Source of the DNA: Gammaproteobacteria bacterium
Lineage (GTDB): Bacteria; Pseudomonadota; Gammaproteobacteria; GCA-001735895
NCBI GenBank assembly: GCA_029864185.1
Contig: JAOTTY010000004.1
Location: 1 to 42,180, forward strand
DNA length: 42,180 bases
Direction of reading: 5' to 3'
Below the pieces are notes generated by a model. It made no database searches and was not told where the DNA came from. It saw nothing but the letters and a program-made list of their open reading frames with translations. Position numbers and translations under genes: made by a program. Below, in pieces: positions 12,258 to 28,358 of the stretch. Position 1 is the stretch's first letter. Every line of letters starts with the position of its first letter.

Positions 12258-13001
12258 ATGATTGCCGACGTTACCATCGGAACCCAGGCGCTGGCGCGCG
12301 CGCTGCGTTTGCTCAACACGCCCGGCATTAGGGCATACGTCATCATGCCGCTGCTGATCAATTTACTGATATTCGGCGTGCTGATCTGGTATGGCTACAG
12401 CCAGTTTTACCCTTTCGTCGAGTGGCTGATGTCCTACGTTCCGGGATTTCTCGATTTCATCAGATGGCTGATCTGGCTGTTCTTCGGCGTGCTGGCCGCG
12501 ATCACCGTGTTTTTTGCCTTCACCCCGGTGGCCAATATCATCGCGGCGCCTTTCAATGCCCTGATGTCGGAGAAAATCGAAGCGCTGCTAACCGGCCGGG
12601 CGGTCTCGTCCGACGTCGGATTTATGCGCATGGCGATCGACGCAATCGCTTCCCAGTTAGGCAAGCTGGTTTACATACTACTGTGGGCATCTGGATTATT
12701 CCTGGTCAGCCTGATCCCCGTCGTCAACCTGGTCGCCCCGCTGCTGTGGGTGATTTTCGGTTCCTGGCTGCTCTCGCTGGAATACTTCGATTACCCGATG
12801 GGCAATCACGACATCGTGTTTGCGGAACAAAAGCGACGCCTGGCGCAACGCCGCGGTATCTCGCTCGGATTCGGTGGCGCGGTCATGATCATGACCAGCA
12901 TCCCCATCGTCAACTTCCTCGCGATGCCGGTCGCGGTGGCAGGCGCCACCCTGCTCTGGGTCGAGCAATTTCAGTCCTCTTCCGCTTCTGCAACGGGCTA
13001 A
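12258..13001 (+). CDS. cysZ: CysZ/EI24 family membrane protein
   Basis: Multi-TM; PFNALMSEKIEALLTGR, LEYFDYPMGNHDIVFAEQKRRL; start at 12258. Confidence 0.82.
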   Translation: MIADVTIGTQALARALRLLNTPGIRAYVIMPLLINLLIFGVLIWYGYSQFYPFVEWLMSYVPGFLDFIRWLIWLFFGVLAAITVFFAFTPVANIIAAPFNALMSEKIEALLTGRAVSSDVGFMRMAIDAIASQLGKLVYILLWASGLFLVSLIPVVNLVAPLLWVIFGSWLLSLEYFDYPMGNHDIVFAEQKRRLAQRRGISLGFGGAVMIMTSIPIVNFLAMPVAVAGATLLWVEQFQSSSASATG

Positions 13002-13053: not shown

Positions 13054-13881
13054 TTACAAGCTTAACGGGGGGAGGTGCAGCGGCTGGCCGCGCTGGCGGC
13101 GCTCGGTATCGGGGAGTATATCGATACTGGGCCACAGGCCGCTCGCTAGCGCCTGGCCGTATTCGATCATGCCAGCCGCGATGGTCGCGTCCCGGCTGAT
13201 CTCGTAATCGTATTCGAGTCGATGCCAGCTGACCATGGGCCGTTCCCCGGTCGGATCGATCAGCATGTACCAGCCGTGGCTGCCGCCGTCGTTGGCCGGC
13301 ATGCCGATGACGCCCGCGTTCAGCCAGAAACAATGGTCGATACGCTGGCCGAAAGGTATGCCCGAATGCCCGCCGATCACGACATCGGCGCTGGCTTCCC
13401 TGATTTGCGCAATCTTGGCCTCGGCATCGCTGGAGGCAAACACGAACGCGTTGATGCTCGACAGGCTGCCGTGCACCGCCCTGAAGCGCATCCCGGACAT
13501 CTCGAAGGCAATGCTACGCGACAGGCCCCGCATCCAGCGGCGCAACCCGCTGGCGACACGCAGATCGGCGTATCGATACCAGGTGCTCGCCAGCGTGGAG
13601 CAACTGCTGCCTTCTTCGAAGCCGCAGCCGCAATCGGGCTCGTTGAATGCGAGCGCCTCCTCGCAATTGCCCATCACCACGTGGATGCCCCAGTCACGGA
13701 TCAGCTCGAGAGTTTCGGCGGGTTCGGCGCAGTAGGCAACCAGGTCGCCGGTGCATATGACGCGATCGGCAGCGATACCGGCGTCGCGCGCGCGTTGCCG
13801 CATCGCGGTGGTAGCCGCAAGGTTGCTGTAGGGGCCGCCGAAAACCAGCATTTCCTGGTCGATATCGCCGAGTTCGAGCAT
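13054..13881 (-). CDS. Metallophosphoesterase-fold protein with degenerate metal motifs
   Basis: FGGPYSNLAAT, CTGDLVAYCAEP, VMGNCEE, DCGCGFEEGSSC, VHGS, IGGHSGIPF, WLNAGVIGMPAND. Confidence 0.8.
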   Translation of the reverse strand: MLELGDIDQEMLVFGGPYSNLAATTAMRQRARDAGIAADRVICTGDLVAYCAEPAETLELIRDWGIHVVMGNCEEALAFNEPDCGCGFEEGSSCSTLASTWYRYADLRVASGLRRWMRGLSRSIAFEMSGMRFRAVHGSLSSINAFVFASSDAEAKIAQIREASADVVIGGHSGIPFGQRIDHCFWLNAGVIGMPANDGGSHGWYMLIDPTGERPMVSWHRLEYDYEISRDATIAAGMIEYGQALASGLWPSIDILPDTERRQRGQPLHLPPLSL

Positions 13882-14001
13882 TTTCGTCCGCTGTTGTTTG
13901 AATTGCAAAATTGGCGCGGTTGCGTCTCTGAGGTACCGCGGATAATACCTCCTCGGACCTTGACCGGGGGGTAAAAGTTCGCATACTGCTCGGCTATTAT
14001 C

Positions 14002-14826
14002 ATGGCAAAGGATTTAAGTTTGCGATTTTTGTTACCCGGCCTGATCCTGTTCGGCCTGCTGGCTGCCCAGGCGCAGGCGCAACCGCGTCAGTCGCTGGTA
14101 CCCGGCGGCATCGCCATCATCTCGCTCGAGCAGGAAAATACGACAAACTACCGGTTTCGGGACAAACCCGTGCTGATAGCCAAAATCGACGGTGTGCCGA
14201 GCGCACTGGTCGGATTGCCGCTCAACCTGAGGCCGGGCGAATATTTTATCGAGGCCCGCGACAGCAGTCAGGTGCGCAAGAAATTCTTCTCGATCAGGGA
14301 CAAGAAATACAGCACGCAACACATCACCATTACCGACGAGCGCAAGGTCAATCCCTACGCCAGCGACATGGAGCGCATTCTCGCCGAAAAAGCGCGTCAG
14401 CAGGTGGCACGCAACCACTACTCGCCGGCCGCGGTCGACGTCGATTTTATAACCCCGGTGAGCGGCGTCAGCACCGGCAGCTTCGGGCGTCGCCGGGTGT
14501 TCAATGGTCAACAGCGCCGTCCGCACAGCGGCATGGACATCGCCGCAGACACCGGCACGCCGGTGTTAAGCCCCAGCGCGGGCAGGGTTGTCGAACTGGG
14601 TGACTTCTTTTTCAGCGGCAACCTGGTCTATATCGATCACGGGCAGGGGCTGATCTCGATGTTTGCGCATCTAAGCGAAATCGACGTCAAGCTCGGCGAC
14701 CGGGTCGAGAAAGGTCAGATCGTCGGCAAGGTCGGTGCCACCGGCCGGGTGACCGGTCCGCACCTGCACTGGAGCCTGGGCCTGAACGGAACCTGGATCG
14801 ATCCCGCCCTGTTTCTACCAGACTAG
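14002..14826 (+). CDS. Secreted M23 family peptidase
   Basis: N-terminal signal sequence; HSGMDIAADTGTPV, GLISMFAHLSEI, GPHLHWSLGLNG with catalytic residues intact. Confidence 0.92.
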   Translation: MAKDLSLRFLLPGLILFGLLAAQAQAQPRQSLVPGGIAIISLEQENTTNYRFRDKPVLIAKIDGVPSALVGLPLNLRPGEYFIEARDSSQVRKKFFSIRDKKYSTQHITITDERKVNPYASDMERILAEKARQQVARNHYSPAAVDVDFITPVSGVSTGSFGRRRVFNGQQRRPHSGMDIAADTGTPVLSPSAGRVVELGDFFFSGNLVYIDHGQGLISMFAHLSEIDVKLGDRVEKGQIVGKVGATGRVTGPHLHWSLGLNGTWIDPALFLPD

Positions 14827-26575: not shown

Positions 26576-27082
26576 TCAATTCGGCGGCAGCCGCATCAGC
26601 AGGCAGCTTGCGCTTTCGGGACACAGCGATGCAAATTGTCGGGTCCGCTTAATCGCGGCGGGCACCCGGTCACGCGACACCCGGTAAAATCCGAGATGCT
26701 CGAAGTAATCCGCCGCCGTCTCGGTGAGCAGGTAAATCGCCTGGCTGCCCCGAGCCCGTGCCTGCGCGATCAGGAATTCGGTTATCAGACGCGCTAGTCC
26801 GCGCCCGCGATACCGTGGATGCACGACCAGCGAGCGCAGCAGCGAGAATTCCGCGGCCGGTTCGAGCCCGCCGGCCGCGATCAGCCGGCCCCGCTTAATA
26901 ATGCCGTAGAATATATCGGACTGTTCGGCACAATCCTGCGAGGGCAGGCCGTTGCTGTCCAGCAGATCAGCGAGCTGGGGCAGCTGTTCGGGTTGCAGCC
27001 TGGCAATCGAGTATTCTGGCAAGGCTCCGGAAACCCCTGTCTCAGTCGCTATCCAGCGTTTCGACGCGGATACGATGGACAT
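26576..27082 (-). CDS. GNAT N-acetyltransferase, ArsN2-like
   Basis: LLRSLVVHPRYRGRGLARLITEFLIAQARARGSQAIYLLTETAADYFEHLGFYRV...AIKRTRQFASLCPESASCLLM; start uncertain. Confidence 0.75.
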   Translation of the reverse strand: MSIVSASKRWIATETGVSGALPEYSIARLQPEQLPQLADLLDSNGLPSQDCAEQSDIFYGIIKRGRLIAAGGLEPAAEFSLLRSLVVHPRYRGRGLARLITEFLIAQARARGSQAIYLLTETAADYFEHLGFYRVSRDRVPAAIKRTRQFASLCPESASCLLMRLPPN

Positions 27083-28358
27083 CCCCATGCACGACATCGA
27101 GTCCCGTAATCGCATCTATGGCATCGACCATTCGCTGCTCGCGAATTTTCTGCGTCAGCATGATGATGGTTGCGCGGGTAACGCCCGACTCGGGCTCCTT
27201 CTGCAGGATCGCCTCGATGGAAATTTCGTTGTCGCCCATGATGCGGGTAATTTCCGCCATGACGCCGGGGCGATCGTCGACGCGCATGCGCAGGTAATAA
27301 GAAGTCTCGATCTCGGTGATCGGCAGAATCGGAATATCGACTATCTGATCCGGCTGGAATGCCAGGTGCGGCACCCGGTTCTGCGCGTCGGTGGTAATGG
27401 TTCTGGCCACGTCTATGATATCGGCGACGACCGCCGAGGCGGTCGGGTCTGCGCCCGCGCCGGCGCCGTAATAAAGCGACGGCCCGAGCTTGTCGGCCTG
27501 CACCAGTACCGCGTTCATGACGCCGTCGACGTTGGCGATCAGGCGTTTTTCAGGGATTAAGGTCGGGTGTACGCGCATCTCGATGCCAGCCTCGGTGCGG
27601 CGCGCGACACCGAGATGCTTGATGCGGTAACCCAGCTGACCGGCATAGACGACATCCTCGGTCGAGATGCCGCTGATCCCCTCGGTGTATACCGCATCGA
27701 ACTGCAGCGGAATACCGAACGCGATCGACGACAGGATACAGAGCTTGTGCGCAGCGTCGATTCCCTCGACGTCGAAGGTCGGGTCCGCCTCGGCGTATCC
27801 CAGCGCCTGCGCTTCGGCGAGAACGTCGTCGAAGTCCCTGCCCTTATCGCGCATTTCCGTCAGTATGAAATTACCGGTACCGTTGATAATGCCGGCAACC
27901 GATTCTATGTGGTTGGCGCTCAGGCCCTCGCGGATCGCCTTGATGATGGGAATCCCGCCGGCAACCGCCGCTTCGAAAACAACATTCACCCCCCGGCGCT
28001 GGGCGGCGCTGAATATTTCGTTTCCGTGCAGCGCGATCAAGGCCTTGTTGGCGGTCACGACGTGCTTGCCGTTTTCGATCGCGCGCATCACCAGCTCAAG
28101 CGCAGGGTCGTATCCACCTATCAATTCGATGACGATATCGATCTGCGCATTATTGACGACCTCGAAGGGATCGGCAGTCAGGCTGATGTCACCGCTGCCG
28201 CCGGGCATCCCGGCAGCGACGTTACGCCGCGAAGCCTGTACGATCTCGATACTGCGCCCCGCGCGGCGTGCGATTTCGGCCGCGTTATTCTTCAACGTCA
28301 ATGCGGTACTGGCACCCACGGTGCCGATACCAAGCAAACCCAGTTTTACCGGTTTCAA
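27042..28358 (-). CDS. hom: Homoserine dehydrogenase
   Basis: LKPVKLGLLGIGTVGASTALTL, FEAAVAGGIPIIKAIREGLSANHIESVAGIINGTGNFILTEM, ACT domain; probable TTG start at 28358. Confidence 0.95.
   Translation of the reverse strand: MKPVKLGLLGIGTVGASTALTLKNNAAEIARRAGRSIEIVQASRRNVAAGMPGGSGDISLTADPFEVVNNAQIDIVIELIGGYDPALELVMRAIENGKHVVTANKALIALHGNEIFSAAQRRGVNVVFEAAVAGGIPIIKAIREGLSANHIESVAGIINGTGNFILTEMRDKGRDFDDVLAEAQALGYAEADPTFDVEGIDAAHKLCILSSIAFGIPLQFDAVYTEGISGISTEDVVYAGQLGYRIKHLGVARRTEAGIEMRVHPTLIPEKRLIANVDGVMNAVLVQADKLGPSLYYGAGAGADPTASAVVADIIDVARTITTDAQNRVPHLAFQPDQIVDIPILPITEIETSYYLRMRVDDRPGVMAEITRIMGDNEISIEAILQKEPESGVTRATIIMLTQKIREQRMVDAIDAITGLDVVHGDVHRIRVETLDSD

Follow-up and report, generated by a model that had tools for sequence, protein, structure and literature searches.

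Metallophosphoesterases with a dinuclear site hold their metals through a set of seven ligands (D, H, D, N, H, H, H). The first metal (M1) is bound by the Asp and His of motif I, the Asp of motif II and the last His of the GHxH motif, and the second (M2) by the Asp of motif II, the Asn of motif III, the His of motif IV and the first His of GHxH. Car1, which Shen and colleagues are said to have described in Mol Microbiol in 2024, reportedly combines a dinuclear site and weak phosphatase activity with coupling to thioredoxin. A paper on Paraclostridium presents Car1 as an arsenate reductase of Rufibacter tibetensis, to which orf1 of Paraclostridium is approximately 40% identical, and reports that Cys74 and Cys76 of Car1 are essential for its arsenate reductase activity (PMC12124457).

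A search of plasmid proteins identified distant metallophosphoesterases, several of which are encoded inside arsenic (ars) operons:

Rubrobacter, metallophosphoesterase gene adjoining arsH and arsC
Hymenobacter, metallophosphoesterase genes adjoining ArsR and, on a second plasmid, ACR3
Pedobacter, metallophosphoesterase gene following ArsR and ACR3
Paraclostridium, metallophosphoesterase gene with ArsR and ACR3 on either side and arsM present
Adhaeribacter, metallophosphoesterase gene flanked by arsM and ACR3
Pontibacter, Rubrobacter tropicus and Mucilaginibacter, comparable ars-operon settings

In an alignment of eight ars-operon proteins, C-G-C at residues 74–76 is invariant, as are all seven ligands (D8, H10, D36, N62, H130, H165 and H167), and motif III reads GNYD. 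The cysteine pair of the relatives from Hymenobacteraceae, the family of both Rufibacter and Hymenobacter, lies exactly at residues 74 and 76, as reported for Rufibacter Car1. Some ars-operon paralogues of this clade have no CxC, so the pair was perhaps lost in these or gained more than once. A second metallophosphoesterase, with canonical GNHD and GHSH motifs and no C-x-C, occurs beside the Car1-like one in ars operons of Pedobacter (L226:4775-5512) and Mucilaginibacter (L236:3001-3735); such pairs are reported in a Mucilaginibacter paper, which calls them uncharacterised (PMC10652896).

The protein studied here (P0001) is encoded on a stretch of 42,180 nucleotides from a gammaproteobacterial contig (JAOTTY010000004.1), the whole of which is referred to as the window. 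The coding sequence and its motifs are as follows:

13054 to 13881 including the stop, minus strand, coding sequence of the GGPYSN-type metallophosphoesterase-fold protein P0001 (275 aa, ATG at 13881)
13822 to 13839, minus strand, motif I position G15-G16-P17-Y18-S19-N20, in which G16 and Y18 stand where D and H (M1 ligands) are canonical, aligned to D8 and H10 of the Car1-like proteins
13744 to 13755, minus strand, motif II C43-T44-G45-D46, with the shared ligand D46 kept and C43 near-invariant
13660 to 13671, minus strand, motif III G71-N72-C73-E74, with the M2 ligand N72 kept and the catalytic His replaced by C73
13600 to 13632, minus strand, cysteine segment C84-G-C86-x7-C94, with C84 and C86 aligned to C74 and C76 of the Car1-like proteins and C94 specific to the subfamily
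13471 to 13473, minus strand, motif IV H137 (M2 ligand), kept in 108 of 108 members
13360 to 13371, minus strand, motif V G171-H172-S173-G174, with H172 (M2) kept and the second His (M1) replaced by G174

An alternative in-frame start (TTG at 13908) is possible; alignments of the relatives begin at the ATG. The gene is a single copy in its genome and stands alone, between a divergent gene starting at 14002 and a convergent gene ending at 13001 (both plus strand). P0001 matched the Pfam profiles Metallophos_2 (42.4 bits, cut-off 27) and Metallophos (25.5 bits, cut-off 21.5), the former being matched by 16 of the 17 aligned subfamily members. No specific NCBIfam family was reached at its cut-off, and the profile likeness to the YfcE family phosphodiesterases (TIGR00040, PRK09453) was weak, at 22 bits where the cut-offs are 56 and 117. 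Approximately 13 kb away in the window, and outside any ars operon, lies a gene for an ArsN2 arsenic resistance N-acetyltransferase (26579-27115, minus strand; 139 bits against the NCBIfam cut-off of 125).

Conservation was counted in 108 subfamily members compared at no more than 90% identity. At the M1-only positions, G16 and G174 were found in all 108 members and Y18 in 107, while the M2 ligands D46, N72, H137 and H172 were each present in all 108. Under the standard ligand assignment, four of the seven ligands are therefore kept (the M2 set) and those exclusive to M1 are all replaced. The cysteines are similarly constrained (C84, C86 and C94 in 108 members each, C43 in 104, C73 in 103 and C51 in 100). 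As motif III reads GNC where GNH is canonical, Cys73 occupies the catalytic-His position, which holds Cys in 103 members, Val in 4 and Tyr in 1, and the catalytic His of GNH(D/E) is missing from the subfamily. Further motifs read in P0001 were F14 before G15, V136-H137-G138 and D83-CGCGF-E-E-G-S-S-C94. The motif changes are fixed across the subfamily, far beyond chance. Decay to a pseudogene was considered and ruled out by this conservation together with dN/dS, which shows purifying selection acting on the gene within the window's genus (dN 0.068, dS 0.266 against an 87%-identical relative). Judging from sequence, a subfamily that has neither M1 nor the catalytic and last His is unlikely to hydrolyse phosphoesters.

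An initial annotation of the window had read motif I as GGPYSN in place of D-x-H-G-N and motif V as GHSG in place of GHxH, with the GD of motif II and VHG kept and a Cys-rich segment following motif III. All of these features were read again in the open reading frame, and both altered motifs proved near-invariant. The changed metal site that it had suggested is borne out by the replacement of the M1-only ligands beside an intact M2 set, but its wording of lost metal ligands holds for the three M1-only residues and not for the four invariant M2 ligands. The change from GNH to GNC had not been mentioned.

Structure prediction, which the initial annotation had proposed as a check, gave a phosphoesterase fold. 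The AlphaFold model (apo, from a 17-sequence alignment) had a mean pLDDT of 95 and a pTM of 0.93, with pLDDT values of 82–94 in the Cys segment. The best PDB folds found by Foldseek, all with a probability of 1.00, were Pyrococcus Pfu-1218608 (1nnw), a Sphaerobacter thermophilus metallophosphoesterase (3rqz) and the asymmetric Ap4A hydrolase SapH (3qfm), which resemble P0001 over the whole chain at 14–21% identity. However, the CGC pair is missing from the aligned part of 1nnw, and 3rqz has the D-x-H motif and an alignment by phmmer in which the Cys segment of P0001 is left out. VPS29 and other phosphoesterase-fold scaffolds match P0001 in structure only, at 13–19% identity. Going by homology, the cysteines would be placed near M2.

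Tests of relatedness to Car1 used the ars-operon homologues in place of Car1's own sequence. HHalign aligned the subfamily profile with that of the eight ars-operon proteins at a probability of 99.9 and an E-value of 9.5e-36, with CGC falling on CGC. Most Car1-like proteins scored 98–115 bits against the subfamily profile (one scored 87), ars-operon copies without CxC 82–89 bits and other metallophosphoesterases 35–76 bits; with the Cys stretch cut out, the top ten matches still all belonged to the ars-operon clade. A tree constrained to join the subfamily and this clade had a likelihood 9.3 log units above that of the free tree (p-AU 0.68). By profile ranking and constrained tree, the Car1-like ars-operon proteins are the closest relatives found. 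A position of the subfamily as sister to the Car1 clade is favoured, though not proven by the tree, and it can be said with considerable confidence that the GGPYSN-type proteins are a Car1-related subfamily.

The two groups share their fold, the placement of C-G-C, the G-D and G-N motifs and their length, as seen with the homologues from Hymenobacter, Rubrobacter, Pedobacter, Paraclostridium and others. They differ in that the Car1-like proteins have all seven ligands and GNYD, whereas the window's subfamily is without the D, H and last H, has GNCE and an additional invariant cysteine (C94), and sits outside ars operons. P0001 and its relatives resemble a Car1-type protein in the CxC pair and in their closest relatives, and depart from it in the dinuclear site and the ars operon; the subfamily is described here as a Car1-related variant and the label of arsenate reductase is withheld. 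The initial annotation had supposed that the subfamily might be unexplained, which holds in so far as there is no named family, but the CxC has a precedent in the exactly aligned CGC of the Car1-like ars-operon metallophosphoesterases.

GGPYSN-type relatives are found in 27 of the 41 genomes of the window's order, and also in other Gammaproteobacteria and in Alphaproteobacteria. A scan of named genomes confirmed at least 573 loci, and among the 80 of these matches listed are members of Oceanospirillaceae, Thiodiazotropha, Sedimenticola, Desulfuromonadales and Rhodospirillales. These 80 loci were chosen by patterns that include the GGPYSN or the CTGD stretch, with C84, C86 and C94 in neither pattern, and members found by profile or tblastn carry the same residues. 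Across 17 divergent members, 44 columns of the alignment are invariant, and the subfamily forms one clade with full support in the tree. Of the residues of GGPYSN and CGCGF, G16, C84 and C86 are common to all 108 members and Y18 to 107, in agreement with the conserved, unnamed subfamily that had been suspected from the window alone. One member is publicly annotated as 'metallophosphoesterase family protein', and a literature search found no paper on the GGPYSN-type subfamily. An origin in viruses or phages was rejected, as no relative was found in the viral contigs and phages searched. Broken copies were also observed in a few relatives: the gene of G001 (L026/L028) is divided between two overlapping frames, G038 (L029) has a second copy interrupted by stops, and G031 (L027) has a remnant. 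The retention of the gene in genomes of only 1.2–1.6 Mb (G820, G488 and G599; L190, L192 and L193) speaks for a basic role more than for an accessory one.

Outside the window's genus, a gene for an SSS-like Na+/solute symporter adjoins the gene in 60 of 65 named loci, usually overlapping it or sitting a few tens of bases upstream. The encoded protein weakly matches the SSS superfamily, with no specific match among NCBIfam models and solved structures, and no shared regulatory motif was seen in 57 regions upstream of the symporter gene read by eye. The symporter is mostly absent from the window's genus, being present in 6 of the 41 genomes of the window's order and missing from the window's own genome; at least one relative (L071) still has it with the flanking genes unchanged, which points to its loss in the window's genus.

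In six alphaproteobacterial loci the neighbour is a radical-SAM gene, apparently fused to the P0001-type gene in one. In the alphaproteobacterial sample this gene occurs in 16 of 19 carriers of a P0001-type gene against 66 of 270 non-carriers (p 2.5e-7). Radical-SAM loci without a P0001-type gene have metZ, apaG and trkH as neighbours, or else genes that look TIGR04282/04283-like by eye. The apparent fusion is a 717-aa open frame (P0002; L176:4660-6810, minus strand) that joins a metallophosphoesterase-like domain to a radical-SAM protein, in the opposite order to that of the adjacent genes; it is a single case and possibly a sequencing artefact.

Genes of arsenosugar-type clusters (ArsS, TIGR04282/04283 transferases, VTT-FAD oxidoreductase, CMD-family protein and PhnDEC) occur within approximately 8 kb at 13 of 107 loci. 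The ArsS at locus L072 was tested and scored above its family cut-off, and both genomes with ArsS in the alphaproteobacterial sample carry a P0001-type gene (2 of 19 against 0 of 270, p 0.004). No TIGR04282 gene was found in the window's own genome. Membership of a classical ars operon was rejected, because ArsM, ArsC and ArsR were all absent from the stretches around the 107 family loci, which argues that the P0001-type gene does not belong to an arsenic-resistance operon; one weak ACR3-like match around these loci fell below its family cut-off. Seven loci (L103, L106, L112, L113, L114, L124 and L093), of which six are from Amphritea, have what reads by eye as a SelU-like gene (tRNA 2-selenouridine synthase) approximately 1–2 kb downstream. 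A pathway restricted to selenium was set aside as not obligate, given this narrow distribution and the presence of selD above cut-off in only 27 of 49 carrier genomes.

The reading that we favour, with a probability of roughly 0.45, is that P0001 is related to Car1, does not hydrolyse phosphoesters and works by thiol redox chemistry on arsenate, an arsenical or a similar oxyanion. Given the loss of half of the metal site and a cysteine pair placed as in Car1, a thiol-redox or metalloid-handling role is more likely than that of a phosphatase. A thiol redox function for P0001, as suggested by its motifs, stands at about even odds, and the odds lean against arsenic being the substrate. Car1 and the ArsS-type clusters would make arsenate or an organoarsenical the likeliest candidate, and selenium or other oxyanions may serve as alternatives.

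Under this thiol-redox reading, the subfamily would have given up phosphoester hydrolysis, and the one metal left, at M2, would hold the oxyanion or arsenical. One cysteine of C84 and C86 could then attack the substrate and the other resolve the adduct, after which C94, perhaps with C73 or C43, would hand the disulfide to thioredoxin in a cysteine relay likened to those of other arsenate reductases. Import of the substrate may fall to the linked symporter or to a PhnCDE-like ABC transporter, and the presence of the symporter suggests that the compound is taken up to be used, not to be detoxified. Counting against the proposal, arsenosugar-type genes lie near just 13 of the 107 loci, an uptake symporter is ill-suited to arsenate detoxification, and the two metals reportedly bound by Car1 are impossible here with canonical ligands.

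A binding role was also considered, in which the M2 residues with C84, C86 and C94 (and C43 and C73) would hold one metal or As(III), and the protein would sense or regulate the neighbouring symporter or transporter from the cytoplasm in the manner of a VPS29-like scaffold. The tight coupling, at most loci, to the gene of a membrane transporter, the loss of M1 and the catalytic His, and the presence of Vps29 among the structural matches are all consistent with such a role. It is nevertheless unlikely, since the CxC falls on a cysteine pair that a relative reportedly cannot do without in redox catalysis, purifying selection persists in the window's genus although most genomes there have no symporter, and the partner gene differs in the radical-SAM-linked and PhnCDE-linked loci.

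It is less probable again that P0001 is an active hydrolase, with thiolates standing in for the M1 ligands and an imported or biosynthesised compound as its phosphoester substrate. The M2 ligands and the end region with N188, G193 and P195 are kept, and neighbours include PhnCDE-like transporters and nucleotidyl- or glycosyltransferase-like genes, but the three M1 ligands are gone with no obvious replacement and the catalytic His has become Cys or Val in nearly all members. We regard as quite improbable a partnership with the radical-SAM enzyme in maturation or biosynthesis, in which the cysteines would bind an iron-sulphur cluster or hold a thiol intermediate. Adjacency in the six alphaproteobacterial loci, the apparent fusion and the strong co-occurrence argue for it; however, the radical-SAM gene is common without a P0001-type protein, and the window's order gives only weak generic matches (at most 48 bits), all of them outside the window's own genus.

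The subfamily is carried by hundreds of genomes. The public label 'metallophosphoesterase family protein' is probably wrong as to chemistry, and the subfamily offers a test case for how a phosphatase fold came to serve in redox or metalloid handling. A further pointer is to a transporter system of two genes that is common in Oceanospirillales, in Sedimenticola/Thiodiazotropha symbionts and in Desulfuromonadales. More tentatively, a new class of one-metal, three-cysteine thiol-redox enzyme, built on half of a phosphoesterase site and coupled to a dedicated Na+-driven importer, joined in some lineages by a radical-SAM enzyme, may constitute an uptake-and-reduction route for arsenic, selenium or other oxyanion compounds in marine and sediment Proteobacteria.
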